Shown: piece by piece, positions 6,945-37,308 of the stretch
How the letters are laid out: each line of letters starts with the position of its first letter
Numbering within the stretch: position 1 is the stretch's first letter
Source: Pseudoxanthomonas sp. YR558
GTDB lineage: Bacteria; Pseudomonadota; Gammaproteobacteria; Xanthomonadales; Xanthomonadaceae
Length of the DNA: 64,000 bases
NCBI RefSeq assembly: GCF_900116385.1
Contig: NZ_FPCI01000001.1
Span: forward strand, 1,860,001 to 1,924,000
Direction: 5' to 3'
Notes under the pieces: generated by a model
Databases searched by the model: none
Told to the model about the DNA's origin: nothing
What the model saw: only the letters and a program-made list of their open reading frames with translations
Made by a program: the position numbers and the translations under genes

Positions 6945-6965
6945 ATATACCCTATGGGGGTATAT
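6945..6965. promoter_or_regulatory. CsoR/RcnR-type operator in the dmeR-dmeF gap
   Basis: Perfect 8-bp arms ATATACCC and GGGTATAT flank the 5 bases TATGG. AT-rich ends with a C-tract/G-tract core are characteristic of CsoR/RcnR-family operators. It lies 12 bp upstream of the repressor start and 18 bp upstream of the exporter start, so it can block both promoters. Confidence 0.75.
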
Positions 6966-6983
6966 TGTCCAGCGGCATTGCCC

Positions 6984-17763: not shown

Positions 17764-18564
17764 GACATTGCCCGCGTCATTGAGTCGATCGCGCTCTTGC
17801 AAGAAGAACTCCACTGGAAGGATTGTTTCGACCTGCAACCCCAGCTCAGATGATAGGGCAGAGTACGTACGTGAAACGTACTTGGATGATCTGTAGAGAT
17901 AGTCAATGTCTGGACTAAAGCTCAGAATTTGAGGGATTCGATGTCCTTTGTGCAGCGCTCTCTTACAACGTTCGACGTTGTATATGCCAACGTGCTGCCA
18001 CATGCTATGCGCTGCACCACTGAATGGCATATAGGCGAATTTGTAGAGTGACTCGCACTCTGCTTCCATCGCCATATCTCGTGTGGATTTTCCGGACCAA
18101 CTCCCAAGATTCACATCAATTGCCCATTCTTGGAGCTGCGAGTTGAGCCACCGCCTTCGGTGTTCTATCAGCTCCGACAACGCAGGGTGCTTTTCTTCAT
18201 CTGGTATGTTCTCTTCTTCATTTTCAAGAAGCTCAATTTGCAGCTTCTCCTGTCCAAGACCGTATTTGATGTACTCGCGACCCCGATCAATAGGACTCTT
18301 GAGAATCCAGGCAAGAGTAATGTGCGTGTCCGTCATTGCTCTTAGAACAAGCGGCGCAAGGTTGCCGTTCCACATTCCAGGATTCTGAGCGAACTCAATG
18401 GCTAGCGTGGCTTGTCTCGCTACCAACCCAGCTATTGCGTCGGAGCCTTCATGATTGTATGTATCTGGCCGGTATAGCGCCCACCGGTCACGCATGCCTT
18501 GGGAAACGTTATCAACGTAACGCTCCAAGAAGTCTTCAAACTCAGCGCGTGACTCATTCATCAT
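17758..18564 (-). CDS. DUF5677-like protein, second gene of an integron cassette
   Basis: Protein of about 268 residues (MMNESRAEFEDFLERYVDNV). It is largely helical, with the segment NPGMWNGNLAPLVLRAMTDTHITLAW typical of DUF5677 proteins, whose function is unknown. The stop lies in the attC site. The gene start overlaps the end of the preceding gene, which shares the cassette. The start is ambiguous between ATG 18564 and the adjacent ATG 18561. Base composition is clearly lower in GC than the core genes, in keeping with a cassette origin. A defence role is possible, as for other integron cassettes, but nothing in the sequence proves it. Confidence 0.75.
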   Translation of the reverse strand: MMNESRAEFEDFLERYVDNVSQGMRDRWALYRPDTYNHEGSDAIAGLVARQATLAIEFAQNPGMWNGNLAPLVLRAMTDTHITLAWILKSPIDRGREYIKYGLGQEKLQIELLENEEENIPDEEKHPALSELIEHRRRWLNSQLQEWAIDVNLGSWSGKSTRDMAMEAECESLYKFAYMPFSGAAHSMWQHVGIYNVERCKRALHKGHRIPQILSFSPDIDYLYRSSKYVSRTYSALSSELGLQVETILPVEFFLQERDRLNDAGNVG

Positions 18565-19285
18565 GAGGGTAGTCGCAAGCAACTAGATCGTAGCTGGAAT
18601 TCCAGAAATATTGAGCCCATTCCTTGGGTGGGTCCACGAATCCAATCTGTGCCATCGTCGATGCACGTATAAAGCTTCCCGCTCTACGGGCGTCTTCTGA
18701 GTCTGGGCGGTCCAATACCGCGTTAAAGTCCGGTAGCTCGATATGAGAAGCAAAATGCACACGGCCCGCAATTAAGTTGTTCATTAGTAGCGCACCATGC
18801 AGCATGATCCCAGGTGTCTGATACTTGTCTGCTGCGCTACCAACGACTCGTTCTAGGCGTTCGACAAGCCTGTCTACGGGAATCGCTTGCGCCGGTGGTC
18901 CGACGAATCGTAGCGCGCAGCTATCGTAGAGCAAGATGAGTGGAGACAGGGCGCTGCGTATAGAGTCCAGAAGCCCCGCTGACTCCCACGAGTCCAGAAT
19001 CTGAAGCTTCTGCTGTTCGGAAAGTGAGATATACGCTGACTGGAGTGCAAAGTTCCTGATCGGCAAGTCCCAATCTTTTCCAACCGTTACGACACGCTCC
19101 AATACATCGCGTCCCCTTAGATAGCCGCTATGGTCATTTATAAGCCCTAGCCACAACAGCTCGGGAAGCAGGTCGTTTACGTAGCTGTACGACTTCATAT
19201 TCTGAAGCGCGTTCAAGGGAGAAACGAGCTTCTTCCCTCGTTTAACGTACCCAGCTAAAGCTTTCCGCTTGCCACGATTCTTCAT
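18554..19285 (-). CDS. Hypothetical protein, first gene of an integron cassette
   Basis: Protein of 243 residues starting MKNRGKRKALAGYVKRGKKL. A basic N-terminus is followed by a mostly helical body; no family or catalytic motif recognised. The ATG lies 13 bases after a GTTAGCC core site (19291-19297), where a cassette would begin, and the gene overlaps the DUF5677-like gene by 11 bases. The two would be expressed together and move together. Their tight coupling suggests a two-protein function. Confidence 0.7.
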   Translation of the reverse strand: MKNRGKRKALAGYVKRGKKLVSPLNALQNMKSYSYVNDLLPELLWLGLINDHSGYLRGRDVLERVVTVGKDWDLPIRNFALQSAYISLSEQQKLQILDSWESAGLLDSIRSALSPLILLYDSCALRFVGPPAQAIPVDRLVERLERVVGSAADKYQTPGIMLHGALLMNNLIAGRVHFASHIELPDFNAVLDRPDSEDARRAGSFIRASTMAQIGFVDPPKEWAQYFWNSSYDLVACDYPHDE

Positions 19286-21027: not shown

Positions 21028-23376
21028 ATGTACGCCGAACTAATGGATCTGGCTAGATCGCTGGGATTGCCTGCCAGCGGCCTAGCATACATAGAAGAAG
21101 CTATCGCCCAGCCTTCTAGGCTCACAGCCGCAGGGCCGGTACCAAATCGCAGTACGCGCTTCGCTTCGCTAAAGATGCGCGTGGTCATTCAAGCAGAGAG
21201 TGCGACGGTAGAGCTTGCATTTGTTCGGCGATGCGAGCTGGATATGAGCATCATCGCGATACTGGATCAACCACCGAAGATCTTCTATCAGGACTTCGAC
21301 TCGATCGGCCGCAAGCGAACGTTCTCTTACACACCAGACTACCTGATCTTCTTTCGCACATCGATTCTAGCTATTGAGTGCAAGAATCGATCAGGCTTAC
21401 TCAAGCTTTTGGAAAAGAATCCAACTTGCTATGAGCTATCTGAGAATGGAATTCAGCACCCCCTTCGCGAAAGGGCTTTCGCCGCAATGGGAATCGGATT
21501 CCAGATATTCGATGCGAGTTCTCTGACCTTTGTCGAGAAGGCTAATAACGCCTTCTTCGTTAACCATCTTAGAGGTGGCGCTACGGCACTACCCTCTCAC
21601 ATAGCGATTGTCGCGCGGAAACTTCTGGCACGAAAGCCGCTCACTATCACGCAACTCCAGTCGCGCCTCGGGCTTCCAACTGTTGATCAGATAGTCGCAA
21701 GCGTGGTTTCGCGCGACCTCTTCATCTGTGAGCGAACTCATCTCGCAACATCACCAGACACGACATGCATATTCAGTGATGAGGCGCAGTGCAGAATGCT
21801 AGAACAGGCACTGGAACAGAGGCTCATTGAACAAGAGTATTCCGAGTACGCCGTGGTGGTTGATTCGCTGACCGAGCGCCAGTCGAGCGTTCTTCATTCC
21901 AATATCAAGGCGATTCTGGATCACGTCAATGCGGGAGCTTTGCTAACTAGGCAACAGTACCGGTACTACGCTAGATGGAACGCTGCTCGCGCGAGTGGAT
22001 CCTCAACAATAGATGCGTTGACTCCAGATTACCGCTCCAGGGGCTGTGAGCCGTACCTTGACCCAAGAGCGGAGGAGGCGGCTGATCAATTTCTTCAGAA
22101 CGTCTACCTGACCCCCTCGGCACCGACACTGCTAGCAACATGGAGGCTGCTCGATCAGTATCTGAAAGATGCGGGAATGAGCATGTCATACGAGACACTG
22201 CGGAAAAGGCAGCATTCGCTAGAAAGCCGAAGAGTGCTCTCGCGCCGTATTGGAATGAGAGCGGCGCTAGCCGGAGCTCCTCCCGTGTCAGCGTTTGATC
22301 GAGAACTGAGCCCCACTGTGGGCTGGCAACGCGCACATGTTGATTCGACTGAAATTCCGGTTAAGGGATTCCTCGATTGGCTTGGATCTCTCTCTACAGG
22401 AAAGCTCAAGCTGTATGCGCTTGTCGACGACGCGCACTCATACACATATGCCGAGTGGATGTGCTTCCACGGCGGCACGGACGCTCTATCTCTCCTCCTC
22501 CGAGAGTGCGCTCGACGCCATGGCAGAGTTCCTCACTGCATCGTCGGTGACCAGGGCTCGGAGAACATCTCCGTTTACTGGCAGTCAGTCACAGCCTTCT
22601 TTTCCATCGATCTCGAAGAACGACCCGCAGGTGCGTCACGCTATGGCGGAAAGGGTGAGTCCTTCTTTGGAAGAATAAAGAAGCTGTTCTTTCGAAACAT
22701 GCCGGGAAACACAAAGAATGACAGGAAAGGGCGGCACTCGGATTCGAAACATCGAGGACGAGCTCATGCCATTCACACCATCCGAGCTCTTGTCGGCCTG
22801 TCAAAACGTTTTACTTCTTTCTTGAATCGCCGACCTCTTTCGAAAGAACTTCTGTCACCGGAATCCCTCATGGCGCTCGATGACGAGCGCTTCTCATGCT
22901 TGGGAATTAAGGTCGATGCGAGCTCCATGGAGTTCTTGGCTAGGACTGCCATCCTGGATGGGACCCGCATGTACTCCTATCTCAAGGGTATTACTTACTG
23001 CGGAGAGCAATATTTCTCCGACGAGCTTCGCGACCGGTCACTCGATGGCAAAGTCGTCAACATCTCTTACGAGCCGTACGACCCGACGACCATTTACGTT
23101 GAGGCCAATAATCGCTGGTACACCCTTCACAGCAGCGCTCACGTGGTAGTCCGCGCCTTGGGCCGGGACGAGCGCACAGCCCGGGTCCATTTCATGCGCA
23201 ACTCTGGAGAAGCACGTGCGCGCGCCAAGCGCGAGTTTGATCGCGAGACTGCTGACTTGACCATGGACGGCATGAGGTCGGCCGCCGCCTTCAAAGCGCT
23301 CGATCCGCCAGAGCCATCGACTGCTGACTACTTTGCAGAAGCTCGGAACCTCCTTGTGGGGCCGCCCAATGAATGA
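21028..23376 (+). CDS. TnsA-TnsB fusion transposase of a Tn7-like element
   Basis: A 782-residue protein joining both strand-cleaving activities. The N-terminal ~200 residues form a TnsA-type PD-(D/E)xK nuclease: VELAF, SYTPDYLIFF and AIECKNRSG give the acidic and Lys residues. A linker with helix-turn-helix segments follows, then the TnsB/DDE integrase with Asp in WQRAHVDSTEIPVKG (about residue 435), Asp in CIVGDQGSENIS and Glu in GGKGESFFGRIKKLFF. A beta-rich C-terminal domain follows. Separate tnsA and tnsB genes are usual for Tn7; fusions are known in some Tn7-like branches. It overlaps tnsC by 8 bases. All catalytic residues look intact. Confidence 0.92.
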   Translation: MYAELMDLARSLGLPASGLAYIEEAIAQPSRLTAAGPVPNRSTRFASLKMRVVIQAESATVELAFVRRCELDMSIIAILDQPPKIFYQDFDSIGRKRTFSYTPDYLIFFRTSILAIECKNRSGLLKLLEKNPTCYELSENGIQHPLRERAFAAMGIGFQIFDASSLTFVEKANNAFFVNHLRGGATALPSHIAIVARKLLARKPLTITQLQSRLGLPTVDQIVASVVSRDLFICERTHLATSPDTTCIFSDEAQCRMLEQALEQRLIEQEYSEYAVVVDSLTERQSSVLHSNIKAILDHVNAGALLTRQQYRYYARWNAARASGSSTIDALTPDYRSRGCEPYLDPRAEEAADQFLQNVYLTPSAPTLLATWRLLDQYLKDAGMSMSYETLRKRQHSLESRRVLSRRIGMRAALAGAPPVSAFDRELSPTVGWQRAHVDSTEIPVKGFLDWLGSLSTGKLKLYALVDDAHSYTYAEWMCFHGGTDALSLLLRECARRHGRVPHCIVGDQGSENISVYWQSVTAFFSIDLEERPAGASRYGGKGESFFGRIKKLFFRNMPGNTKNDRKGRHSDSKHRGRAHAIHTIRALVGLSKRFTSFLNRRPLSKELLSPESLMALDDERFSCLGIKVDASSMEFLARTAILDGTRMYSYLKGITYCGEQYFSDELRDRSLDGKVVNISYEPYDPTTIYVEANNRWYTLHSSAHVVVRALGRDERTARVHFMRNSGEARARAKREFDRETADLTMDGMRSAAAFKALDPPEPSTADYFAEARNLLVGPPNE

Positions 23377-24403
23377 TGCTCTTCCGTTTGAACCTTTCAA
23401 GCATTCACGATTCGAAGACACGATCGGGCTTGCACATGCTGCCGCCGTGATGGCACGGCCTGGCGACGTCATCTTGATAGTAGGTCCCTCAGGCGTTGGA
23501 AAGACCGTGCTACTTGATGCTTTGATGGACAGGCTCGTCGGCGAACCAGAGCTCTGGCCTCCAGGCGACCGGCCCATGGTCCGCGTCGATCTGGACGTCA
23601 TCGAGTCGGGAGGACTGATGAAAGCCGTCGCTTACGAGTACAACCGGGCATTGAGCAATCCATTTATGACCCCGGAGCTCGACCCCCTGGCATCTGTAAG
23701 AAAGATCAATACCGAGACCGCTCTTAGAGCTAGCGCAAGATCTCTCGCGCATGCACGCGGCGTTCGATATCTAGCCATGGACGAAATCAATCACATTCAA
23801 CCTAGCCGTCCAGCTACAGCTTCAAATAGGCTTGACAGCCTGAAGATGCTTGCAGGATCTAACAACAAGAACCCGAAGAAGGGCGACGTTGTTCTGATCT
23901 TGGCCGGCCATTACTCGGTGCTCGATCTGCTTAGATTCAACCGTCAGTTGCATCGCAGAATATTTGTGATTGCTATACATCCATACTCCGATCTAAGCAG
24001 GTCTGACGTCCTAGAGTGGGAGAGAATTCTCGTGTGGGCCGAGGGCGTGTTTGGATTCGAGTCCGGCATGCTTAGGTCCATCAATGACCTTATTTTCGAA
24101 GCCAGCTTTGGCTGTATTGGCCACCTTACTAGGAGGCTGGAGTTTGCCGAAGCAATCCGGACCAGCAGAGGCGATGATCGCCTTACGTTGGAACATGTCG
24201 CCATGGCTGCACCTTTCGCATCCTTTATGGAGGATATGAAAGATGAGATCCATGGCTTCTCTCAACTCACCGCAACGAGCGATTGGGGCGGGCGAGTCAT
24301 TGCTCGCATGCAGGGGCCGACCAAGGCAGAAGCCCGCAAAGAGAAGCGTGGTCGTCGTGGCCGCAGGAAGGTTGGAGCTCGCGACAACGTCGGTGCGAAA
24401 TGA
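23369..24403 (+). CDS. TnsC-like AAA+ ATPase
   Basis: Transposition regulator of 344 residues that links the target-selection protein to the transposase. Start ATG 23369 (MNDALPFEPFKHSRFEDTIG) overlaps the tnsAB stop. Walker A is VGPSGVGKTVLL (about residues 33-44) and Walker B is RYLAMDEINHIQ, followed by sensor segments (VVLILAGHYS). The C-terminus is Lys/Arg-rich (KEKRGRRGRRKVGA). The stop overlaps the start of tniQ as ATGA. Confidence 0.92.
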   Translation: MNDALPFEPFKHSRFEDTIGLAHAAAVMARPGDVILIVGPSGVGKTVLLDALMDRLVGEPELWPPGDRPMVRVDLDVIESGGLMKAVAYEYNRALSNPFMTPELDPLASVRKINTETALRASARSLAHARGVRYLAMDEINHIQPSRPATASNRLDSLKMLAGSNNKNPKKGDVVLILAGHYSVLDLLRFNRQLHRRIFVIAIHPYSDLSRSDVLEWERILVWAEGVFGFESGMLRSINDLIFEASFGCIGHLTRRLEFAEAIRTSRGDDRLTLEHVAMAAPFASFMEDMKDEIHGFSQLTATSDWGGRVIARMQGPTKAEARKEKRGRRGRRKVGARDNVGAK

Positions 24404-25638
24404 GGGACGTCCTCGCTCCGGTCAGGCCTTACCATCACGAGGTCCATGGGATTGAGTGCTTTCCCACCTATTTCACGCGGGTGGCGCGAACCCATGGCGC
24501 ATCCCCCGGCCAGCTTGCTCATCTTCTCTCGAAACTAGGCGCATCTCTAGAGCTGGCAGACACGGATTTCCAGTCATCTATTCCAAACAATATCTGGCGC
24601 CTGGCCGGCCATACGGTTTCCAGCGAAAGGCTGACTAGGCGGATGGATTATTGCATGCTTGGCGGGCGTAGCCGGCTAACCTGCACACTCAAGCTTCGCC
24701 AAGCCCTGTCCCAGAACCATGTCGGCTCCGTTAGGCCGACACCGGGATACTGTCCCGCTTGCCTGGCGAAGATGGTTGATGAGGCGGAGGGGGAACTTTG
24801 GATTCCGCTCTCGTGGTGCTTATCGGTCGTGACGCATTGCGTGGTGCATGGCTGCGAGCTACACAGCGGCCTCCGCAACACACGGGACCTTCCCTCGCTA
24901 CCGCGGATCAAGAGTGGCTCACTCGGACCGGAGCTCATCTGGACGCATCAGGCCGCACATCGGATATGCAGCTATGTTGCGGATGAGCGGTCAACCAACG
25001 CCCCCTCTGATGGTTACTCATCATTCCTCCGAGAGCTGAGGGATCACTTTAGCGATGTTTCCGATTTTTCCTTCGCAATCGATGCCGGACTAGATCTTGC
25101 GAACGTCAGAAGGAGCCTTGATCAGGGAAGTAAGCCCGGGCTAAACACTGTATTCAAAGTTGCTCGCAGATTCTCATTTAGCCCGCTGGATGTACTCATG
25201 GATGGCGGCAAGTGCCTCATCAATGGCGAGCTCTTCAGAAGATCTAGCACCGACCGTTCGCCGAGGAATAGCATGATGTCACGACTGTACTCAGACGCGG
25301 AGAGACTGGCCGTTCGACAGCAGTTCGTGCGAATACTTTCTTGCGATGATGACCTCCCATCGCTCCGAGAGTTCGCAAAAGATCATGGAGTCTCCACGAA
25401 CATGCTGCGGTATTCGTTTCCGGAATTGGTTGAAAGGCACATTGTCAGGTGGACGGCTCAACAAGACAGCTTGCGCGCGCGGAAAGAGCAAGATGCGCGA
25501 GACGCAGCGGCCGCCTATGTAAAGTCGCGAGGGGTTCGGATTTCTTGTAAGGCGGCAGTTGCAGCGCTCATGCAATCGACCGGGCTTCCGAAGCACGTTC
25601 TGGAAAGAGCAATCCGCTTTGCGTTGGATCCAAGCTGA
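24400..25638 (+). CDS. TniQ/TnsD-like target-selection protein
   Basis: A 412-residue protein (start ATG 24400, MRDVLAPVRPYHHEVHGIEC; the frame extends upstream but this start couples to tnsC). The TniQ domain is clear: PTYFTRVARTHGASPGQL early on and the zinc-binding pattern YCPACLAKM ... CLSVVTHCVVHGCEL. The C-terminal half carries helical DNA-binding-like repeats (LREFAKDHGVSTNMLRYSFPEL), as in TnsD proteins that read a chromosomal att site. It is the only target-selection gene here. The element's right side lies against a tRNA gene, so the tRNA could be its target. Confidence 0.88.
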   Translation: MRDVLAPVRPYHHEVHGIECFPTYFTRVARTHGASPGQLAHLLSKLGASLELADTDFQSSIPNNIWRLAGHTVSSERLTRRMDYCMLGGRSRLTCTLKLRQALSQNHVGSVRPTPGYCPACLAKMVDEAEGELWIPLSWCLSVVTHCVVHGCELHSGLRNTRDLPSLPRIKSGSLGPELIWTHQAAHRICSYVADERSTNAPSDGYSSFLRELRDHFSDVSDFSFAIDAGLDLANVRRSLDQGSKPGLNTVFKVARRFSFSPLDVLMDGGKCLINGELFRRSSTDRSPRNSMMSRLYSDAERLAVRQQFVRILSCDDDLPSLREFAKDHGVSTNMLRYSFPELVERHIVRWTAQQDSLRARKEQDARDAAAAYVKSRGVRISCKAAVAALMQSTGLPKHVLERAIRFALDPS

Positions 25639-25925: not shown

Positions 25926-26001
25926 TGGTGGGCCCACCAGGACTCGAACCTGGAACCAAAGGATTATGAGTCCTCTGCTCTAACCATTGAGCTATAGGCC
26001 C
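25926..26001 (-). tRNA. tRNA-Ile2 (anticodon CAU, lysidine-type)
   Basis: A 76-nt cloverleaf including encoded CCA: acceptor GGGCCTA/TGGGCCC, D arm GCTCAATGGTTAGAGC, anticodon arm GAGGACTCATAATCCTT with CAT, T arm CCAGGTTCGAGTCCTGG. Overall it resembles bacterial tRNA-Ile2 (CAU) more than elongator tRNA-Met. Its 5' part (25961-26001) is one of two 41-bp direct repeats bounding the island; the other copy (37268-37308) lacks the 3' half. The intact gene is therefore a hybrid of island-supplied 5' part and chromosomal 3' part, and its transcription must come from the island side. Confidence 0.9.
25961..26001. repeat. Island attachment-site repeat, left copy
   Basis: 41 bp identical to 37268-37308 (starts GGATTATGAGTCCTCTGCTC). 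It coincides with the 5' half of tRNA-Ile2 through the anticodon arm. The bases on both sides differ between the copies, so these are the exact repeat limits. Confidence 0.88.
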
Positions 26002-26785
26002 TGTAAGGGTTTGGGGGTAGTTCCCGAACCTTTGTGTGTAATTTGCGTGTAATTCTGACCCCGGTGAGGCGCCTCTCTAGGGCGTCCATGGCGTCCTGCA
26101 AAGAGGCCGCATGAGTATAGCGTTCGGCCATCGCCCTCGTCTTCCAACCCCCCATGGCTTGAATGGTTGCCGCATCTAGCCCGGCGTGCGCCGCGTTGGT
26201 GGCCGCCGTATGCCGCAGGGTGTGGGGGGTGACATGCTTTGTTATCCCTGCGCGCTGCACGCAGCGAGCAAAGATTGTGTTCATCTGATGCACCCGGCCG
26301 GTAGCCGACCGGCTAGAACCGAACAGGAGTTGCCCGGGGTCAAGGCCCTGCGTAAGTCCCCCCAGGTAGTCGGCCAGCACCGCGGGCATGGGCTGCTCTC
26401 GCCGCCCCGCTTTGTCCTTCCCGATCCACAGGATCCGACCGGATACGTCTACATCACCGGCCCGAAGGTTGAGGATCGGACTATGCCGCAACCCCGTGAA
26501 CAGCCCAATCATCACGAAGGGCAGTGCATGGGGTGATGGGTCGAGCCTGGCAGCCTCGAGCAGACGCTGACTTTCCTCCGGCAGGAGGTAGATCAGCTTA
26601 CCCGCAGGCTCTCGTTGCCGGGCCAGGAGGGGCATCGCTTGGATTTGTTTACGCCTGCGCATGGTGTTGAACATGTGCAGGAGCGCTGATCGCTCTCGAT
26701 TGATGGTTGCAGGGCTGGCACCCTCTTTCTTACGCCGGTCTACGTAGGCCAACCAATGATCGTCAGTGATCTTGTCGACCTGCAT
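25964..26785 (-). CDS. Tyrosine-type integrase of the tRNA island
   Basis: Site-specific recombinase; the chosen frame gives 273 residues (MQVDKITDDHWLAYVDRRKK). It has a core-binding domain (ATINRERSALLHMFNTM) and the catalytic domain with Arg in IGLFTGLRHSPILNL, HTLRHTAATNAA (His-x-x-Arg) and Tyr in MAERYTHAAS. The N-terminus is shorter than usual. An upstream in-frame extension (HAGLAQHEPFFGT before the Met) is open but lacks a clear start, so the true start may lie further up or the arm-binding domain may be damaged. The gene runs into the tRNA and ends [12 protein letters not shown], coded by the attachment repeat itself. Confidence 0.85.
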   Translation of the reverse strand: MQVDKITDDHWLAYVDRRKKEGASPATINRERSALLHMFNTMRRRKQIQAMPLLARQREPAGKLIYLLPEESQRLLEAARLDPSPHALPFVMIGLFTGLRHSPILNLRAGDVDVSGRILWIGKDKAGRREQPMPAVLADYLGGLTQGLDPGQLLFGSSRSATGRVHQMNTIFARCVQRAGITKHVTPHTLRHTAATNAAHAGLDAATIQAMGGWKTRAMAERYTHAASLQDAMDALERRLTGVRITRKLHTKVRELPPNPYRAYSSMVRAEDS

Positions 26786-26989: not shown

Positions 26990-27775
26990 ATGCCTGCCAA
27001 GTTCAATCCAAGTTTCATCGGACTGCAGATTGACTGGGACGATGATGGCGAGATTGAGTACATCGGGCCAGCGATCCTATATGGATCTGCTGCGTTCGTT
27101 CAAACCGCGGCCACATGCAAGTATGGCCGGAACACGATCCACTACCGTTACCCAGCCGCCGCCAAGCGCGAACGCAACAAGCTCACCTTGAGCTACGCGC
27201 AGAACCCGATCCAGTGGAATCCTGCTTGGGAATGGGAGGTCTACAGAGGCGACCTGACAATCGAGTTCGCCGATGGACGGCCCCACAAGGTGTCTTTCAA
27301 GTACGAAGGCAACGAACTTCCCCACACCGTACTGGATCAGGGCGCGGACTGGACCTATCAATCTGAGCAAACGCGCACTCTACCCACCCCCACGCCTCGA
27401 GGGCGACTGGTGACCACCCAGTTTGAACGAAAGGGCCAGGCTCTGCTTCGAAATCTACTCATCTCCGAGCATGGGCAGTGCCAGGTCACCGGCATAACGT
27501 GCCCGTCGGCGCTCGAGGCCTGCCATATCCTGCCAGTGGCCAACGGTGGCCACGACAATCTCGAGAATGCGCTCTTGCTACGCCGAGACATCCACGCGCT
27601 GTTCGATGCGGGCTTGCTCGAGTTCAAACTCAGGAGCGGTGCTTGGCATATCCAACTGGACCCTAGTATCAAAGACAAGCCTTACGAAGCACTAGCTGGC
27701 AAGCCGCTATTGCATAGTTTTGATACTGCCTCTCCCTATCTGACGGCAAGATCCGAGCTGAAGCGAAACGACTGA
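26990..27775 (+). CDS. HNH endonuclease domain protein
   Basis: A 261-residue protein. The N-terminal ~140 residues are of unknown type (MPAKFNPSFIGLQIDWDDDG). The C-terminal part is an HNH nuclease of the HNH_2 kind: LLISEHGQCQVTGITCPSAL, then LEACHILPVANGGHDNLENA and LLLRRDIHALFDAGLLEF with the His/Asn/His residues. Such proteins are often stand-alone restriction enzymes or parts of defence loci. It is divergent from the integrase and precedes the Septu-like pair by about 180 bp. Confidence 0.85.
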   Translation: MPAKFNPSFIGLQIDWDDDGEIEYIGPAILYGSAAFVQTAATCKYGRNTIHYRYPAAAKRERNKLTLSYAQNPIQWNPAWEWEVYRGDLTIEFADGRPHKVSFKYEGNELPHTVLDQGADWTYQSEQTRTLPTPTPRGRLVTTQFERKGQALLRNLLISEHGQCQVTGITCPSALEACHILPVANGGHDNLENALLLRRDIHALFDAGLLEFKLRSGAWHIQLDPSIKDKPYEALAGKPLLHSFDTASPYLTARSELKRND

Positions 27776-27958
27776 ACTGGTCAGTCAAATGCCAACAAAG
27801 TCGCTCCGCCATCGATACGCGACCAGCAGCTAATCGGGTCCGTGAAGAACGTCGAAAGTGCCGACGGTCAACGCCCTACGACCCCAAGATTTCTGACTAC
27901 TCTTGACAACAAACGCCGCGATCCTTGAATGTCGCATTGGGGACAAAAAGGGGGCCGC

Positions 27959-29335
27959 GTGTCGAATATTGCGATTCGGGAGATCACGATCGATCTTCCC
28001 TTCATTGGCGAGAAAGACCTCGTGCTCTCACCTCAGGTGAGGCATGGCTCCTACGTGACCGTGCTTATCGGAAAGAACGGCAGCGGGAAGTCGACACTCC
28101 TACGCGACTTGACGACTGCGCTGCGAGATTCCTACGCCGGATCCAAGCGATCCAGCAGAGCCAGTTCTCGCGTCACTCGCATCAAGATAGAGAATGATGG
28201 CCACGTCGTTACGATCGAGGGGTCGCGCTCCGGAAAGTCTTCTAGTGAGCAAGACCACTACGCCGCTAGAGCTGCCATCCCTAAGAAGATCATTGCGCTC
28301 TCGTTCACTCCCTTTGACAAGTTTCCGACGAATGATGGATACACGAACAAAGACAAGCTAAATCCCGATTTAAAGAAAGAGACCTACGTCTATTTAGGCT
28401 TTAAAGGAGGCGTTCGCGCTTCACCACGATCTCTGCTCCGTCGATCTATCGATCAGTTGGCGCTTGCCAATGCTAGCTACGCTTCAGATCATCACGTTTC
28501 TGATGTATTTGCAGTGCTTGGGTATGAACCAAGACTTACGATCCAGTATCAGATGAATCGTCTGGACAAAGTACTCAACTCACCGCACATCGATCGTGGT
28601 TATATCGAGAGTCTCATTGAGCAAGTTCGACCGGCCTTTCGATCCGGTCGTGGCGTTAGCGGCCCCGCGCTCTCTTACGAGTTTGACTTTCTTCATGGAG
28701 GGAGCTATTCCTCAAACAACGTCGAGTTCGAAACCTTTCGTCAACTAGTAAGAGCGAATGTTCTGCAGATGACATCTGCAAATCTCCGGCGTCATAACGG
28801 CCAAGAGGTTGAACTCCTTGACCTCTCCTCAGGTGAACTCAACCTACTGTCAGGATTTCTTGGGCTGGCGGCGAACCTAGAAGATGGCTGCCTAGTCCTT
28901 ATCGATGAACCCGAGAACAGCCTTCACCCGGCTTGGCAACTTGAATACATCCAGATGCTGGATGCCCTACTCAACAGCAGAAGAGGATGTCATTACATCA
29001 TTGCCACCCATTCTCCGCTTATCGTGAGCGGCTTTGCTGGCAGAGACTGCTCTGTTCTAAGGCTAGATCAGAACCCCGTCGTAGTCGACGACGACGCTAT
29101 TTCCAATTCCTCGCCAGACGCGACGCTAGTTAGCGCGTTCAGCATCGTCACTCCCGACAACCATTTTTTGAAACAGCTTGTGCTCGAAGCGCTGGCGCTT
29201 ATTGAGCAAGGAAGGCACAAGGAGGAGCGAGCTCAAAGCATCGCAAAGTTCTTGGCGTCTCTTCAAAGCCGAATTCCAGATGAAGGACTTCGGGTCCTAG
29301 TCCGCAACGTCTGCGCTTCGATACTAGAACTATGA
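27959..29335 (+). CDS. ptuA: PtuA-like ATPase of a Septu-type defence pair
   Basis: ABC/SMC-type ATPase of about 458 residues. GTG 27959 (VSNIAIREITIDLPFIG) is preferred because a GGGGG site precedes it; an ATG at 27929 would add ten residues. Walker A is VLIGKNGSGKSTLLR, the signature is LLDLSSGELNLLSGF, Walker B is LVLIDEPENSLHPAW and the H-loop is IIATHSPLIVSG. The 60-residue Ser/Arg-rich insert after Walker A is unusual. The downstream HNH gene overlaps its stop by 4 bases. ATPase plus HNH nuclease is the composition of Septu; no reverse transcriptase or ncRNA of the retron-associated form is seen. Confidence 0.8.
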   Translation: MSNIAIREITIDLPFIGEKDLVLSPQVRHGSYVTVLIGKNGSGKSTLLRDLTTALRDSYAGSKRSSRASSRVTRIKIENDGHVVTIEGSRSGKSSSEQDHYAARAAIPKKIIALSFTPFDKFPTNDGYTNKDKLNPDLKKETYVYLGFKGGVRASPRSLLRRSIDQLALANASYASDHHVSDVFAVLGYEPRLTIQYQMNRLDKVLNSPHIDRGYIESLIEQVRPAFRSGRGVSGPALSYEFDFLHGGSYSSNNVEFETFRQLVRANVLQMTSANLRRHNGQEVELLDLSSGELNLLSGFLGLAANLEDGCLVLIDEPENSLHPAWQLEYIQMLDALLNSRRGCHYIIATHSPLIVSGFAGRDCSVLRLDQNPVVVDDDAISNSSPDATLVSAFSIVTPDNHFLKQLVLEALALIEQGRHKEERAQSIAKFLASLQSRIPDEGLRVLVRNVCASILEL

Positions 29336-30243
29336 CCACAATCTTTCTGGACAGCGAGCAGGCCGAGATTGATGCGGTTCGGCGCGACTGTACGAGCGAA
29401 GAGCTGAATGCCTGGTTTGATCAGTCAGCGATCAAAGCGCGATTCAAGAAGTCGTGTATGAAGCTGCAAGGACTAAGATGCTGCTACTGTCAGAAGTACT
29501 CGAACACCATTAATAGCAGTCAATGGGATCTCGAGCATGTCTTGAGCGAAGATGACTACCCTCAGTTCTTCACAGTGGATGGAAATCTCGCGATCGCCTG
29601 CAAGAAGTGTAATCTTGCAAAACGCAACCAAGATGTGCTCGTGCAGTCGCACCCGCGGCCACCCGTGTCACTTCCCAGCAACTCCATTCACTATTCAATA
29701 CCGCATCCTCGCATCGACGATTGGGCGCAGTGCCTTTCTCACGTCAACTATGAGATCTACAAGGGCCTGAATGATAAGGGCACTGAACTGATCACTGTCT
29801 GCCGGCTCAATGAGCTTGCTGTCTTGAATGGCAACCTCAGTTATGAGGACGTTGTTTTTGCTGCAAAGAGCAGATTCTTCGACAGAATGGGCAGCGATCT
29901 TCCTGCCGACTTCCCGGAAGATGATGCAATCGAACGGATGGCTCAGCTGACGCGCGACAACGAGGACGCACTGAAGTACCTGCAAATGGCTCCGCTCGAG
30001 AATGAACTAAGAAAGCTCAATAACAAGGCCGCCAAGAGGACTGCAGAGTCAGCTGTACTTGCGGCCAAAGAGCTTGCGGCTAGGAAACTCAAGAAGCGAC
30101 TTCTTGATAGCATCTCGAAATGCGAAACTGCAGACTTTGAGATCATACGCAAGGCACTCGTCCTAACCGTCGACGAAAGTGCTCCATTGCTCATTGGAAA
30201 TGATAAGCAGCCTCCTGGAGTGGCGGATCCAGAACCCACTTGA
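29332..30243 (+). CDS. ptuB: PtuB-like HNH nuclease of a Septu-type defence pair
   Basis: A 303-residue protein with an N-terminal HNH domain: CCYCQKYSN, then SQWDLEHVLSEDDYPQF (catalytic His) and LAIACKKCNLAKRNQDV, where two CxxC pairs bind zinc. The rest is helical, with a Lys/Ala-rich coiled segment (about residues 215-255), and probably contacts the ATPase. The ATG overlaps the ptuA stop (ATGA). Expected role: DNA cleavage on phage infection, controlled by the ATPase. It is a little longer than minimal PtuB proteins. Confidence 0.8.
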   Translation: MTTIFLDSEQAEIDAVRRDCTSEELNAWFDQSAIKARFKKSCMKLQGLRCCYCQKYSNTINSSQWDLEHVLSEDDYPQFFTVDGNLAIACKKCNLAKRNQDVLVQSHPRPPVSLPSNSIHYSIPHPRIDDWAQCLSHVNYEIYKGLNDKGTELITVCRLNELAVLNGNLSYEDVVFAAKSRFFDRMGSDLPADFPEDDAIERMAQLTRDNEDALKYLQMAPLENELRKLNNKAAKRTAESAVLAAKELAARKLKKRLLDSISKCETADFEIIRKALVLTVDESAPLLIGNDKQPPGVADPEPT

Positions 30244-30465: not shown

Positions 30466-33400
30466 CTACTGGATGCTCTTTGCCATTCCCTGCAAACGGG
30501 CGATTGTCCTTCCGATTGCAGGGCGTAGCATAGGTTGGGACCTTCCCAGCACATGCACGATGTCGAGCAGAAGACCCGCCTCAGACTTGTCCAGATCCAG
30601 GCGAACACATGACTCTATGAAGTCAACCACTGAGGCGACCCACTCCCCTGTGTCGGCGTTAGCCCCACATGCCGTCAAGCCTGCCAGCAAACGAAGGCTC
30701 AGTCCAACGTCCGCTCTATCATTAATGAGTGCGATGACCGACTTTGCGAAATGAGACTGACGTGAGGCAGCGGCATTAAGAGCAAGATGCATGAAGAGCG
30801 GCTCCCAGCTCTCTCGCTCTTCAGCCGTAACATCTGAAGCCCTAAGCTCGTTAACGAATTGAGTGAGTCTCGCATACAACTCATGATCACCTCGGCCCAG
30901 TGAGGCCAGGTGGGCCGCCATCGTAAGCCTTTCAGCCAGACATCTCTCCTCACTGTTCAACAGCGTGTGCAACTCAGCTAGGAACCGGGGAGGTAGGCTA
31001 TGCAAATCCTCGAGCCCCCCCTCTAATGGCCCGGGGAGTCCGCTGAACTGCATTACTCGCTGTGACTCCAATGACTGCGGATCGTCGCCGAACGCGAGGC
31101 CATCCAGTGAACCTTCGAAATCCCCTTGTCTATCAAGTAGGGGCTTAATTACCCGGCCTATCAGCTCTTGCTTGAGCTGCCACCACGACATGAGCCAGCC
31201 ACTCCATCTTGGCTCCCTGGTCAGATCCGCCATGGTGGAAAATTGAAATCTAGTTCGCTGAGCCCATGCCCAGCTCGCAAGCTCGTCGAGCGGCGCTCCA
31301 GCCGCCAGCGCTGCTCGTTCTATTAGTGCTGCGTGGGCAAAACTTGCATGACGCCGCCAGAATACAGGCGCCTGCGTAAAGACCCCGCTCGTACTGAGCC
31401 TGCCATCCACCAGCATGGCAATGGAAGCAGCGAACTTAAGGCGACCGCTTTCTTGCGCAATGGATGTTCGGAACACGCGCAGAGCACCCTGGAGAACATC
31501 CAATAGTTCTGTTGAAGCATCTGGCCTTTGCGATAGCGCCTCTAGCAAACCGGTGAGCGACCAGATGTCTACGCCGGGCAGCAGGTCCTCGCAAAGCAAA
31601 CGAATAGACGAGGCATTCAACGCCACTATCGCAGAGACTGGAACTAAACTGGAGTGCGACGACCACATGAGCTCATTACGGACCCGACCTACTACATCCA
31701 GATCCGCCTCTTGCTCGCGCTCGCGCAGCATCTCTGCGAACGTAGAAAGACTTTCACTCTTTCCATGCGAGAGCACGAGTCTTTCATAGTAGCGTCGTGA
31801 CAGTGGGATCAGCTCAGCGGATTTGATAGATCCATTCTCGAAAGACGCTTGGATCCGGCTAAACAACGGATTTGGTGCATCCGCAAGATCGCTGTCGAGC
31901 TTACTGAGGCTTTGCGGCTCAAGAGGAGCAAGCGAGGCACTCTCAAACCAACTTTTCAGGTCTTGCTCCTTGAGTCCAGCCTCTTCCGCCATCGCTCTTA
32001 GGCGCTTATGCCGCAACACCACATCTGGGGACACTAGTGCCGCATGCTCAAGATTGAAGCGTCGCCCCGTCTCCTTCTGATAGCAGACGACACCTTCCAA
32101 GTTATCGCTTGAGTCAATGCGCCATGAAGTACCAGCTTTATCCTGTACGTTGATATCAGACGCACCTGACATCGCTTTCGATACTTCTGCGTAGAGCGTA
32201 TTCACGTCGAAGCTAGGATGCCCCTCTACTCCGATTGTGATCCGACTCGACTTGGAGAGCCCTATCGAACTCAGCAATTTCTCGTCCTCCAACAGACGAC
32301 TCTGCACGGACTCCGGGAGCCTATCGAGCTGCGATTTACAGATCCTTGCATTCATTCCGGCAACATCGCTCTCCGACATGCCTGGTCTAGCTTCAGGTAT
32401 GAAAGACCTGATAGCTTGCAACTGACTAGAAACCTGTTCACATATAGCGTCGAAGACACGAGGCCGCTCCAGCTGCAGTGAGCCCAGAACCGAAGCCTCA
32501 ATCCACTCGTTGTACGCACGTCGCTTCCCAGCGGTAAGATCGAAGTTTGTCAGCAAGCGCGCAACGCCTATCGCGTCGATAACGATTAGTCGCTCTTCAT
32601 TCCAGGGAGGCAACATACTGCTAGCTAGTCCATCCCATTGACCGTACTCAAGCAGCCAGTTTGATTTAGCCTGCGCTTGGATAGGATCATCGGTCGTCAG
32701 CCATACGCGAGCGAGAGTAGCGGCTGCTTGCGCCCCATTGTTAGTTATCCAAGCCGCCTCTCCGGGCAACCTAGCGATACCGGCAACCTGTGCAAGTAAG
32801 TGATTCTCTCGAATCGCGCGAGCGGCGCCTGCCTCAATCAGGATTTCGCCTTGTACTGAGGCGCCTTCCAAGGCCGTCTCCAGTTCGCCGGACTCGACCG
32901 GAATCAACAGATAGCCAGCGCGTCGAAGTTCATTCCTATAACCGCGCCGGGACTTCTCGTCTATAGCGTTGCTGTCTCGTAGCCAGTCCAGAACGTCAAG
33001 ACTGGTCCGCATGGCGATCGCCGCCCCATCAGCATGCGTATAGGTCACAAATCCATTGGCCGCCCTATCATCCACAACGACCGCCTCAACGCCAGTCTGC
33101 TGCTCCATCGTTTGAAGGAGTATGAACTGCGGATCCACCGACAGAACATCGTCGGCTTCAGGCCCGCGAACTGGTCGGCGCAGAAAGCTTAGTCGGCCAC
33201 TCTTCTGGCCATCAACCACGAACTGCCGGATTGCTTCGATGACCTCGTCAATCCTACCCGTGGTCTTTTCAAGATTTAGGAGTTCAGCCGCTTCTCGTTG
33301 AGCATCTTGGTGGATAAGAACCCGATAGGCGTTCTGTAGCTCCCCCCACACTCCAGTACTGTGGAGATAGGAAACCGACAAGTCGTCCAAGTAGAGCGTA

Positions 33401-36400
33401 GCGCCAATCGGCAGAATCGCATCATCCTGCCATCCATGATCGTGCCTTACTAGGAAGGCCTCGCTCCTATCAGCCTTGTCTTCACTGATGGCGCCATGAA
33501 ACCGTAGACTTCGAACCAACTCTCGCGTACTCCGGATAACGTGCGAGTGTTCGCTTACATCCGCGTTCTCTTGGCCGAATGAGCTAACCAAGTGTATGGG
33601 AGCCGCTCTTACCACATAAGCATCAGTACCTTTGCTGCGATCTACATTGGCCGCCTCAATGAGCTCGGCTAGATCTGAGCCAATACGCCTCGTGAGTTCG
33701 CGAGATACGCTTGGGTGACGTTGAGCAATATGTATGTTCCCTGTTGCGAGATAAGCCACAAGAATCTTTGCATCAGCGATTCGACTAGGCTGGTGAAACT
33801 GGATTTCCTGGCGTTCCGCGAAAAGCCAACCACCGATGGAGTGAGGCACCCAGAGACGCTCAAAGCCCTCTAGGACTTTCGGCAAGAGATCGAGGAAACC
33901 AAGCGTCAGGAGAGCGGTCTGATCCAGCGCGATGCTTCTAGGCGTCTCGGGAAGTGAAGGGCGCTCCACACCTGCGAAAGCGATGACCGGGCTCCGACGA
34001 CGGAAATCCTTCTCCACGCGGTTACTTTCGGCAGGGCCGAGCATCATCGATGCTAGCGGCCGGCTGACCTGTCGTGCGGCCATTGAAAGAAAGACTTCAC
34101 CCTTTGTCAGGCCCTCAACCAAGGTGTCGGTGCGCTCGCGCCACTCGGGCATCATGGCCGCAAGATCCTCAAGGCTCTTGGACTGTATAGGGCCCTCATC
34201 GGAGGCCTGAGCAACCGCGGTTCTCACCCACTCGGCTGTAATGGGGTCGCTCTCCCATCGCCCACGCACGGCGAGCATGTAGCACTCCATAAGAAGAGCA
34301 GGATCACTATTGCATTGATCGGCAATGCTGACAGCGTACTTTCTGGCGACCGCTACTCGCCCTAGGTTCGTGGCGAGGCGCGCAAAGACTCGCATGTCAT
34401 CCAGGCTTGGTGACTCTTCCTTTAGAGCGACCTCAAGCATCTCCCATAGTCGATCCCAGTCACATGAGTAGACTGCGATTTGTATCTCGAGGAGTGTGCG
34501 CTGTTCGGTGAGTTCAGGACGGTTGTTTGCTACATTTCGTGCATCCCCCCATCGACCATGCCGGAGGAGCGCCTCCAGATACAGCCCCGGAAGCTTGTCA
34601 GACTGCTCGACCTGACCAGGGTTCTGATCAAGAAACTCCTCGATCTCCTGCCATCGTTGCTGCTTGTATAGAAGCCGAAGCCATTGCTCGGCATCACCAT
34701 GATGTTTCGTTAGCTCGTAGAGCTTCTTCGCATATTCGGATGCCGTCGCCATGTCGTTAGCATCGATGAGCGCTGCAACGAGTATCTGCAAGCTAGCCGG
34801 CAAATGCTTCTTATCGTTGGAAGATGCCTCGAAGACGGCCATTGCTTCGACAGCGCTAACTGACTTGTCATTCTGAAGCTTCAGTCGCTGGAGCATCAGA
34901 GGCGGAGTGTGCTCGGCGCGCTCGATGGCCGCCCTCGCCTCGTCTGTTCGCCCGAGCTGCACCAGGGCCTCAAGTTCATGGTATTCAAGGAATGCAGCGG
35001 TGAAATAGGGCTTCAGCCAGCCTCTCAACTGGTTCCAGTCGTCTATCCATTCGCTTCCGCGACTGCTTAGTATCAACGCGAGGCGTCCACGCGCGTCTAG
35101 GAAGTTCAACGACCCGTAGGTCGTCGCCTGTCGGTCGAGACGAGACGCCTCCTGCGTCTTGTCAATTGATACATTTGCCGCTAGCGCGAGCGGCAACCAG
35201 CGCGAGTCGCCGTTAGACGAAGCCCATCTTTGTGCGATGTCCGTAGCAGCTGAGGCCTCAGTCAGCCGATCCTGAAGCCTCAGCCAAAGATGGAACTCAA
35301 GCGCTTCATCGCTTTTCTCTTGAGCACCAATTTTTACCGCTGCTTCATGAAACCTAAGTAGCAATGCCGACGCTCGGCGGCGTGCATCCAGCGCTTGAGG
35401 ATCATTGCTAAGAGGAAGGTCCGTGAAGATGGGCGGACCCTCAAGGATTATATTTTGCAGGGGCGGTGCGACGCAGTGCGTCAAGAGACCAACGCTGATT
35501 CCCCAGAGCAGCGCAGGAAACTCGTCGCACGCTTCGTTCGGAATGTCATCCAACCATACGAGGGCGTCGCTCCAGCGCTGATGATGCAGATAGTCCATAA
35601 GTATCATGAACATTCCATCTGCATCGACGTCTTCAGGCTTTAGGCCAGCCGCAGCTACCCACTCCAGTCCCGCCTCATTCGCGTCGCGGCGATGAATTGC
35701 ATAGCGAATGGTTTGTGATGACCTATCTTTTAAATCCGCAATCCGGAGTAGAGCATCCGTCTTGTCCTGCTTTGCTACGAGTAAAGCGTCGACAAGTTCA
35801 GCGTGATCATGGCGATCGAGACACTTAGATTCAGAAAGCAATCGATTGGCTAAAGGCTCGTCGCTCTCGACAAGCATACGCGCGCACCAGCTGAGAGCTA
35901 TAGCCCTCAGAGCCGGCTTTCCAAGCTCGAACCTTCCCCCTTCTGATACTTCACCTGCCAGCTCTCGGGCTCGGTCGCTGAGCTCACTGCCAAGAAAGAA
36001 CCGCGCTTTGCGAAGTTTCTGCAAGCGCAGATCTATGTCGCGATCTAGTGGGTCTGTAGCGACGTTTCTCGCTAGCGCTGCGTCATGCTGCAGTTGCTGA
36101 TACTCGGAGTTCAGGACCTTATGATGCGTCGCGTCTTGAATGACCTTTACTAGGTCAGTTCGCCTCAGTTGCCGATCCTTCGGATTGGGTCGTGTAGAGG
36201 TCTCTGTGACCGAATTGATTACAATCGGCGTGAGTGGATCGGTCTCATTCCATGGCACATCGAGCTCATCATGAGCAAACTCCGCAACCCTTTTTGCCAG
36301 TTCAGACTGCAATGAGATCGGAGTGGACTCGCTCCATGCCCAGGTGACTGCGGAGATTAGACCTGCCACAACTTCTTCTGGCGTTGAACTGATCAGAAAC

Positions 36401-36858
36401 GCCCGCAACTTACTTTCTTCTTTTGCGGACTGCTGCAGCAGCTCTAGCAGTGGAGCTGAGTCAGCACCCCGTTTCACTCGATCCCAGTAAGCCAGCGCCG
36501 TCATTCCCTCCGGAATCAGATTGCTCTCTGGTCGATCCCCAAGCGGACTAGTCGTTCGATAGACGAAAGACAAGACATGATTAGGGTTTAATTCGATGAG
36601 TTTTACGACATGCTCGAGGAAAGCCAGCGCCGTCGACAGGGTCAGAGGGGCCTTGACGTTCCGAAGCTGGTGGACATCGAGACGCCCGCCCTCTTCTACG
36701 GCGTAGTCTTCGGCTTTCTCGATGTGCAGTGTCTGATCAGATTGCAATCGTAGCCATGCAAGCGCCGTAGCGACATCCTGATAGTAGTAGCCCCGCTTGC
36801 TCGCGGTCGCATCGGTGCCAGCTACGCCTTCAATCGGCGACTCTTGCCTCTCCGACAT
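30466..36858 (-). CDS. Giant 2130-residue protein: Cap4/DUF4297-like N-terminus, TPR-like middle, possible PIN-like region
   Basis: I do not recognise this family as a whole. Residues 20-75 (KRGYYYQDVATALAWLRL ... LHIEKAEDY ... LDVHQLRNVKAPLTLS) resemble the start of DUF4297/Cap4-type PD-(D/E)xK nucleases, with Glu47/Glu50, Asp61, Gln64 and Lys69 in a plausible order. Residues about 600-900 are TPR-like helical pairs (LVQLGRTDEARAAIERAE; WLRLLYKQQRWQEIEEFL). Asp979 (SIALDQTALLTLGFLDLL), Asp1158-1159 (LYLDDLSVSYL) and Asp1263-1264 (AVVVDDRAANGFVTY) sit at ends of predicted beta strands, as in PIN-like nucleases. The last 800 residues are mainly helical. I see no Walker A motif, so it is not a STAND/Avs ATPase. 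It is a single gene, convergent with the Septu-like pair and last in the island. Antiphage function is inferred from neighbours and domains. Confidence 0.8.
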   Translation of the reverse strand: MSERQESPIEGVAGTDATASKRGYYYQDVATALAWLRLQSDQTLHIEKAEDYAVEEGGRLDVHQLRNVKAPLTLSTALAFLEHVVKLIELNPNHVLSFVYRTTSPLGDRPESNLIPEGMTALAYWDRVKRGADSAPLLELLQQSAKEESKLRAFLISSTPEEVVAGLISAVTWAWSESTPISLQSELAKRVAEFAHDELDVPWNETDPLTPIVINSVTETSTRPNPKDRQLRRTDLVKVIQDATHHKVLNSEYQQLQHDAALARNVATDPLDRDIDLRLQKLRKARFFLGSELSDRARELAGEVSEGGRFELGKPALRAIALSWCARMLVESDEPLANRLLSESKCLDRHDHAELVDALLVAKQDKTDALLRIADLKDRSSQTIRYAIHRRDANEAGLEWVAAAGLKPEDVDADGMFMILMDYLHHQRWSDALVWLDDIPNEACDEFPALLWGISVGLLTHCVAPPLQNIILEGPPIFTDLPLSNDPQALDARRRASALLLRFHEAAVKIGAQEKSDEALEFHLWLRLQDRLTEASAATDIAQRWASSNGDSRWLPLALAANVSIDKTQEASRLDRQATTYGSLNFLDARGRLALILSSRGSEWIDDWNQLRGWLKPYFTAAFLEYHELEALVQLGRTDEARAAIERAEHTPPLMLQRLKLQNDKSVSAVEAMAVFEASSNDKKHLPASLQILVAALIDANDMATASEYAKKLYELTKHHGDAEQWLRLLYKQQRWQEIEEFLDQNPGQVEQSDKLPGLYLEALLRHGRWGDARNVANNRPELTEQRTLLEIQIAVYSCDWDRLWEMLEVALKEESPSLDDMRVFARLATNLGRVAVARKYAVSIADQCNSDPALLMECYMLAVRGRWESDPITAEWVRTAVAQASDEGPIQSKSLEDLAAMMPEWRERTDTLVEGLTKGEVFLSMAARQVSRPLASMMLGPAESNRVEKDFRRRSPVIAFAGVERPSLPETPRSIALDQTALLTLGFLDLLPKVLEGFERLWVPHSIGGWLFAERQEIQFHQPSRIADAKILVAYLATGNIHIAQRHPSVSRELTRRIGSDLAELIEAANVDRSKGTDAYVVRAAPIHLVSSFGQENADVSEHSHVIRSTRELVRSLRFHGAISEDKADRSEAFLVRHDHGWQDDAILPIGATLYLDDLSVSYLHSTGVWGELQNAYRVLIHQDAQREAAELLNLEKTTGRIDEVIEAIRQFVVDGQKSGRLSFLRRPVRGPEADDVLSVDPQFILLQTMEQQTGVEAVVVDDRAANGFVTYTHADGAAIAMRTSLDVLDWLRDSNAIDEKSRRGYRNELRRAGYLLIPVESGELETALEGASVQGEILIEAGAARAIRENHLLAQVAGIARLPGEAAWITNNGAQAAATLARVWLTTDDPIQAQAKSNWLLEYGQWDGLASSMLPPWNEERLIVIDAIGVARLLTNFDLTAGKRRAYNEWIEASVLGSLQLERPRVFDAICEQVSSQLQAIRSFIPEARPGMSESDVAGMNARICKSQLDRLPESVQSRLLEDEKLLSSIGLSKSSRITIGVEGHPSFDVNTLYAEVSKAMSGASDINVQDKAGTSWRIDSSDNLEGVVCYQKETGRRFNLEHAALVSPDVVLRHKRLRAMAEEAGLKEQDLKSWFESASLAPLEPQSLSKLDSDLADAPNPLFSRIQASFENGSIKSAELIPLSRRYYERLVLSHGKSESLSTFAEMLREREQEADLDVVGRVRNELMWSSHSSLVPVSAIVALNASSIRLLCEDLLPGVDIWSLTGLLEALSQRPDASTELLDVLQGALRVFRTSIAQESGRLKFAASIAMLVDGRLSTSGVFTQAPVFWRRHASFAHAALIERAALAAGAPLDELASWAWAQRTRFQFSTMADLTREPRWSGWLMSWWQLKQELIGRVIKPLLDRQGDFEGSLDGLAFGDDPQSLESQRVMQFSGLPGPLEGGLEDLHSLPPRFLAELHTLLNSEERCLAERLTMAAHLASLGRGDHELYARLTQFVNELRASDVTAEERESWEPLFMHLALNAAASRQSHFAKSVIALINDRADVGLSLRLLAGLTACGANADTGEWVASVVDFIESCVRLDLDKSEAGLLLDIVHVLGRSQPMLRPAIGRTIARLQGMAKSIQ

Positions 36859-37267: not shown

Positions 37268-37308
37268 GGATTATGAGTCCTCTGCTCTAACCATTGAGCT
37301 ATAGGCCC
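37268..37308. repeat. Island attachment-site repeat, right copy (5' half of tRNA-Ile2)
   Basis: Exact copy of 25961-26001. It is preceded on the minus strand by opgH, which marks it as the original chromosomal position of the tRNA 5' end. After the anticodon arm the sequence leaves the tRNA, so this copy cannot make a tRNA. Confidence 0.88.

Follow-up and report, generated by a model that had tools for sequence, protein, structure and literature searches.

A 2130-codon gene in a tRNA-Met island of Pseudoxanthomonas as a predicted single-gene member of the TPR–GreA/B-C–PIN conflict family

The stretch of DNA analysed here (the window) comprises 64,000 nucleotides of Pseudoxanthomonas sp. YR558 (contig NZ_FPCI01000001.1, positions 1,860,001 to 1,924,000), and it raises the question of what kind of protein is encoded by one very large gene on its minus strand (36858..30466), a single ATG-initiated frame of 2130 codons. 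An earlier note, made from the letters of this DNA, had proposed a giant defence protein with two nuclease centres joined by a sensor-like scaffold. Judging from its sequence, the protein is a further member of the predicted TPR–GreA/B-C–PIN conflict family, in which an exchangeable N-terminal effector is mounted on a constant core (here residues ~270-2130). We consider it probable that it is a single-gene defence protein of this family, whose core would act on RNA polymerase, whose PIN region would act on RNA and whose Cap4/DUF4297-like nuclease effector would act on DNA. This explanation is supported because domain profiles, the exchange of N-termini on a shared core, conserved PIN-type aspartates and a tRNA island with defence genes all speak for it.

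The architecture is not new, contrary to the earlier note. A conflict system of TPR, GreA/B-C and PIN with restriction endonuclease (REase) effectors was described in 2021 (PMC8195603), and Pfam models named for the family exist (PF20698, PF24407 and PF24388). What is added here is a Cap4/DUF4297-like effector, an arginine in the catalytic lysine column, one-gene and two-gene forms, invariant PIN-type residues and an island with exact borders.

Under the local base composition a stop-free run of 2130 codons has a probability of ~10^-39, so the openness of the frame is not due to chance, and a distant homologue in G854 (2014 aa, fused) aligns to window residues 271-1971 (BLAST, E 3e-150); the claim of one uninterrupted frame is thereby confirmed. 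BLAST similarity to the first gene products of Agrobacterium (Afab_A), Methylophaga (Mthal_A) and G1150 (G1150_A), and to G854, starts at residues 262-272. More broadly, it begins at residue 233-336 and reaches the C-terminal part in G854, G1150, Agrobacterium, Neorhizobium, Methylophaga and Klebsiella, is restricted to residues 852-1946 in G499 and covers parts of 853-1590 in three cyanobacterial proteins. Neither the PADLOC nor the NCBIfam library yielded a match to the window protein.

The PIN region of the protein is recognized through HTH_upst_double_PIN (PF24407), which scores far above its cut-off (Table 1). The remaining core domains match more weakly, and these matches are supported because relatives such as G854 score above the curated cut-offs for every family model (PF24407 82 bits, PF20698 58.0 bits, PF24388 30.5 bits). 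The relatives from Agrobacterium and Methylophaga likewise carry PF24407, and have PF24388 above cut-off on their second genes (Afab_B and Mthal_B), as does G1150 (G1150_B, 54.8 bits). For PF20698 the Methylophaga protein (Mthal) reaches 46.8 bits, the Agrobacterium protein falls just under the cut-off with 26.5 bits, G608 and G569 are below it as well, and in Gloeocapsopsis, G499, Allocoleopsis and Nostoc the Pfam scan found no match. The TPR-like middle proposed earlier draws weak TPR_14 and ANAPC3 matches, both below their cut-offs, and TPR is above cut-off in the relative G608. A permuted GreA/B-C domain is probable on the same kind of evidence, and a strand-rich unit at residues 1539-1602 of an AlphaFold2 (AF2) model occupies its position; both this domain and the constant core had been overlooked in the earlier note.

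Two PIN-like units follow the HTH region. The sequence has YYYQ at 24-27 and, at the positions numbered, E47, E50, D51, D61, Q64, R66, K69, D979, D1158/1159 and D1263/1264; the residues proposed for a PIN-like active site could be followed in 20 aligned carriers, a set that leaves G854, G1150, Allocoleopsis and Nostoc outside. D979, D1263, D1264 and R1265 are invariant (20/20), position 1288 holds D in 18 and E in two, and of the 18 carriers that cover position 1158, 16 have D, Gloeocapsopsis has N and G499 has S. In the AF2 model of residues 880-1500, built from 14 sequences with a mean pLDDT of 67, there are two alpha/beta units, with one strand ending immediately ahead of D979, another immediately ahead of D1158 and a third two residues short of D1263. 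The reading of these aspartates as PIN-type is supported by their conservation, and by PF20698 being above cut-off in Methylophaga and G854. The single-PIN relatives G608 and G569 match most of the second unit including its DDR motif (92.8%, 119 columns) and, over 46 columns (92.6%), the beginning of the first. An origin of the pair by internal duplication was considered as well and is not demonstrated, because the comparison of the first with the second unit by hhalign was not significant (probability 2%).

The double PIN could conceivably form one composite RNase centre, that is, a doubled PIN with an active site split between D979 and D1263-D1264; the scaffold bearing it would be directed to RNA polymerase, and the chain would also include a DNase-type domain. 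The first unit is without a DDR motif, the strand-1 aspartate of the second (D1158) is substituted in two of 18 carriers, and the two single-PIN relatives each retain one D979-type D and one DDR; we nevertheless regard the composite centre as doubtful.

For residues 1-270 the earlier note had suggested a Cap4/DUF4297-like nuclease with D61 and K69 as catalytic residues, and the first part of this claim stands. This part aligns at 24-31% identity with ten other proteins, likewise at their N-termini, and profile A2, built from 11 module members, matches the solved DUF4297 chains 8ziq (E 4e-6) and 8xav (E 1e-5). Profile A1 gave nothing useful against the PDB, and Pfam Cap4_nuclease (PF14130) matches four of the 11 members at E <= 1 (best 5.8e-4), the window's own copy not being among them. 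In the module alignment (n=11) E47 and D51 are invariant and E50 and Q64 nearly so. The profile alignment, however, places D40, Q53 and K55 of DUF4297 at D51, Q64 and R66 of the window protein rather than at D61 and K69; of the catalytic D, Q and K, the first two are thus kept and the lysine is R66. Because of this arginine we call the module Cap4-like and not a proven Cap4 nuclease, and its DNase activity, though plausible from the sequence, is uncertain.

The same arginine invites the alternative that the module is catalytically weak or dead, contributing dimerization or DNA binding, and that the PIN pair is the sole effector of an RNase defence protein. According to PMC11291478, disrupting the nuclease site of DUF4297-HerA abolished defence. 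In favour of this alternative, K55, at whose position R66 stands, is one of the three residues changed jointly in the inactive mutant (D40A/Q53A/K55A), and D61 and K69 lie outside the aligned catalytic positions. However, E47, D51 and Q64 are retained, arginine also occupies the lysine column in L009 and L011 (3/11 with the window) and is therefore no lone loss, and other carriers bear varied effector-type domains at the same position. On balance we hold a weak or dead module to be rather unlikely, and retain the nuclease effector as the preferred reading. The proposal of two nuclease centres in this protein appears largely right on sequence evidence, although fold comparison did not confirm it.

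The Cap4-like module also heads proteins of a different kind, since a strict Walker A motif lies downstream of it in seven of the nine other proteins checked, as would be expected if the window protein were a sensor of the Avs/STAND kind whose NTPase had degenerated. This identity was rejected because strict Walker A (G-x4-GK[ST]) is absent from the window protein, as noticed earlier, and Pfam finds no NTPase family match in it. Strict Walker A is equally absent from 13 gene products of 10 other carriers, and BLAST similarity to the Walker A proteins ends at residue 248 (L011, L020) or 334 (L009); an Avs/STAND origin is thus very improbable.

A variable N-terminal effector on a constant core, the hallmark of the TPR–GreA/B-C–PIN family, is seen across 24 carriers. 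These are the window, the H1, H3 and H4 plasmids, two cyanobacterial plasmids, G499, G608 and G569, G854 and G1150, and 13 genome contigs; left out of the counts were G387 (its contig is truncated and PF24407 is below cut-off), H2 (a second Agrobacterium plasmid with a match identical to H1) and H6/H18. G608 and G569 were counted by PF24407 and profile comparison. Seven N-terminal types can be told apart, with G499, G1150 and L032 (cut by a contig edge) outside them. The Cap4-like type occurs in the window only (1/24). Nine carriers begin with two hydrophobic segments, taken from hydropathy to be membrane helices (Methylophaga, L030, L031 and L033-L038), and five with an esterase-type domain, recognized in Agrobacterium by Pfam DUF676 and in L026-L029 by likeness. 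Three have a PD-(D/E)xK-like N-terminus, assigned by motif alone, and one each has an HNH-like domain (G854; HNH_2 20.2 bits, just under the cut-off of 21), a nucleoside phosphorylase (PNP_UDP_1) and a bacterial death-like domain (bDLD3). The cyanobacterial PD-(D/E)xK label rests on the motif GIDLLA...TEVGQCK, because phmmer of one such N-terminus against the PDB gave no match. In L018, a phosphorylase gene with its own bDLD3 (561-1706) precedes a core protein starting with bDLD3 (1729-7515), and the two are possibly an adaptor-effector pair. On the Rhizobiales contig L028 (5224-9812) the esterase-type gene A is broken into two overlapping frames.

Two overlapping genes encode the core itself in 16 carriers (the 13 genome contigs, Agrobacterium, Methylophaga and G1150), and a single gene does so in the other eight, including the window; similarity to gene B begins at window residue 1494-1518 (BLAST).

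The distribution of the family is sporadic. Counting the window genome, PF24407 occurs in two genomes when the order is scanned (n=299; one of the two scores below cut-off) and in four when the phylum is (n=398), and for profile A5 the class has three matching genomes among 369. Whole-protein scans of genome contigs and viral contigs gave no relative, tblastn of P0001 against phages gave no match, and E. coli genomes matched neither a part of the gene (blastn) nor the Klebsiella relative (megablast). Family members are carried on plasmids, in the tRNA island and, in the two loci tested, behind tyrosine recombinase genes; L030 has three of these and L031 two, and several are weak matches. The three L030 proteins (443-5245) precede a two-gene system and match Phage_integrase, with scores under the cut-off for the second and third; frames of comparable length occupy the corresponding place in L034 and L038, and the L030-type arrangement is possibly a recombinase-trio element. 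By annotation, SIR2 and HsdR-N genes lie close by on the Agrobacterium plasmid, and restriction-type genes adjoin L017 and L042 (by eye only). It is these observations that bear on whether the protein might instead be a housekeeping factor for transcription or RNA quality control. GreA/B-C and RNase-type domains would be compatible with transcript cleavage of that kind, but the sporadic occurrence, the mobile carriage and the swapping of N-termini among effector types all argue against it, and we regard such a role as improbable.

Several results weigh against our reading as a defence protein of the TPR–GreA/B-C–PIN family. In the window protein PF20698 (residues 1156-1223; 19.1 bits, cut-off 27.8), TPR_14 (22.8 bits, cut-off 23.5, E 1.2e-4) and PF24388 are all below their cut-offs; PF24388 is also weak and under the cut-off in Gloeocapsopsis and has no match in five one-gene carriers (G499, G608, G569, Allocoleopsis and Nostoc). 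At E <= 1e-3, BLAST does not connect G608 or G569 with the window protein, and PF24407 is marginal in G569 (23.6 bits in one scan, 27.6 with neighbours in another). To this must be added the arginine in the catalytic lysine column. Confidence in the AF2 models is moderate (mean pLDDT 67-68), and the structure-prediction check that the earlier note had proposed went in part against a nuclease fold: for residues 880-1500, a Foldseek comparison with the PDB had no match at E <= 0.001, and the best 50 of 745 matches included neither a PIN nor a Gre entry. The GreA/B-C-region model likewise gave nothing at E <= 0.001 and no PIN or Gre entry among the best 50 of 910. With no fold match from Foldseek, it is family profiles and homology that carry the PIN and GreA/B-C assignments. 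As to the surroundings of relatives, a PADLOC scan of ten flanking proteins from five loci (L029, L030, L031, L034 and L036) gave matches at E <= 1e-5 for five proteins in two loci only, namely HEC-05 (701 bits) with weak ApeA-like and phospholipase-effector matches in L029, and two mad3-like matches in L036; the flanking proteins of L030, L031 and L034 had none. Finally, the open-licence PubMed Central literature searched contained no experimental work on the family.

If the family reading holds, the core, composed of a TPR scaffold, the HTH region, two PIN-like units, a permuted GreA/B-C domain and a helical C-terminus, would engage RNA polymerase via GreA/B-C once an invader takes over transcription, and the PIN centre would then cleave the transcript. 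Should this prove insufficient, or else in response to the same signal, the Cap4-like domains could be brought together by oligomerization or a conformational change; they would then degrade DNA, and death of the cell would end the infection as a last resort. RNA polymerase as the target is a prediction of the authors of PMC8195603, who foresee action on polymerase hijacked for transcription of viral DNA, with the effector as a back-up killer; the RNase and DNase activities, the trigger and the order of events are our inference. With its mobile-island borders defined exactly, the locus is a single-gene representative of a predicted defence family that has no match in the PADLOC library used. 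As each of two separate nuclease-type regions offers clear residues for mutation, it would allow the idea that immunity acts on hijacked RNA polymerase to be tested directly.

The large gene is placed at the right end of an island of 11.3 kb whose two borders are identical 41-bp copies of the 5' half of tRNA-Met. The integrase-driven tRNA island, its Septu-like pair and its HNH nuclease had all been noticed earlier and are confirmed (Table 1). By coordinates, the final codons of the integrase (25964-26001) fall in the 5' half of tRNA-Met. In 1-kb steps the G+C content is 0.51-0.57 over 27-37 kb, 0.61 in the integrase block and 0.62-0.72 in the right flank; left of the tRNA (17-26 kb) it is likewise low (0.52-0.58). 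The right flank was searched in 31 congener genomes (own included) and matched in 30, and the loci of 11 others were compared. In ten of these (L055 and L057-L065) a complete tRNA-Met occupies the position of the right repeat, which shows that they lack the island. The eleventh, L056 (G1187:C1), has no complete tRNA there and a second, 42-bp copy ~6 kb off, and a different island seems to occupy the same tRNA-Met site in this congener.

Table 1. Features of the large gene (residues refer to its protein) and of the tRNA-Met island, in window positions
Feature	Position	Strand	Evidence
Exchangeable effector module, distant Cap4/DUF4297-like PD-(D/E)xK nuclease, residues 1-270	36049..36858	-	profile against solved DUF4297 structures
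TPR-like helical repeats, start of constant core, residues ~271-890	34189..36048	-	start of BLAST similarity; weak TPR_14, ANAPC3
HTH_upst_double_PIN (PF24407), residues 896-963	33970..34173	-	64 bits, cut-off 27, E 1.5e-17
First PIN-like unit, residues ~968-1100, D979, acid at 1061/1062	33559..33957	-	conservation, AF2, single-PIN relatives
Second PIN-like unit (PF20698), residues ~1148-1300, D1158, D1263-D1264-R1265, D1288	32959..33417	-	Pfam, conservation
Probable permuted GreA/B-C domain (PF24388), residues 1546-1582	32113..32223	-	19.3 bits, cut-off 27, E 9e-4
All-helical C-terminal region, residues ~1607-2130	30469..32040	-	AF2 model
Left 41-bp repeat	25961..26001		within tRNA-Met (25926-26001, -)
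Island tyrosine integrase	25964..26785	-	Phage_integrase 89.7 bits; overlap with tRNA by coordinates
HNH_2 endonuclease gene	26990..27775	+	47.5 bits, cut-off 21
Septu PtuA-like ATPase	27929..29335	+	PADLOC PtuA 251 bits
Septu PtuB-like HNH nuclease	29332..30243	+	PADLOC PtuB 110 bits
Right 41-bp repeat	37268..37308		repeat comparison; complete tRNA-Met there in 10/11 congener loci

Outside the island, Tn7-like core genes lie directly left of tRNA-Met (21028-25638, +), comprising a TnsA-like/rve/Mu-transpos_C fusion, an AAA/TniB-like ATPase and TniQ. Farther left, two overlapping frames on the minus strand (17758-18582 and 18554-19285) match the C-terminal and N-terminal parts, respectively, of the PADLOC DitA model, and are apparently a two-part or broken DitA-like gene.

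How does the protein compare with systems already described? DS-3 of DefensePredictor is, like the predicted product of the large gene, a single protein, and its PIN nuclease is needed for defence; its PIN is described in PMC13092281 as split between the N- and C-terminus, unlike that of the window protein, a comparison made by description alone. With DUF4297-HerA, and with the Cap4 and Avs3 nuclease domains compared in PMC11291478, the window protein has in common the N-terminal region of RGYxYQ, E..ED and Q-x-K, the DUF4297 D40 and Q53 aligning with D51 and Q64 and the position of K55 being R66. Unlike DUF4297-HerA and Avs3, no HerA gene was seen adjoining the window gene, and the protein carries no STAND domain.

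The closest counterpart is the TPR–GreA/B-C–PIN system itself. As set out in PMC8195603 (eLife 2021), TPR, GreA/B-C and PIN form its constant region, the N-terminus is EAD10 or else drawn from 13 effectors, REase and HNH among them, and the genes are mostly standalone, an arrangement that the window protein appears to share. The window protein differs, however, in having two PIN-like units with a probable permuted GreA/B-C domain behind them, whereas the text of the paper names one PIN and leaves 'permuted' unmentioned. Its effector is Cap4/DUF4297-like, and its core is contained in one gene, whereas 16 of the 24 carriers have it split in two.

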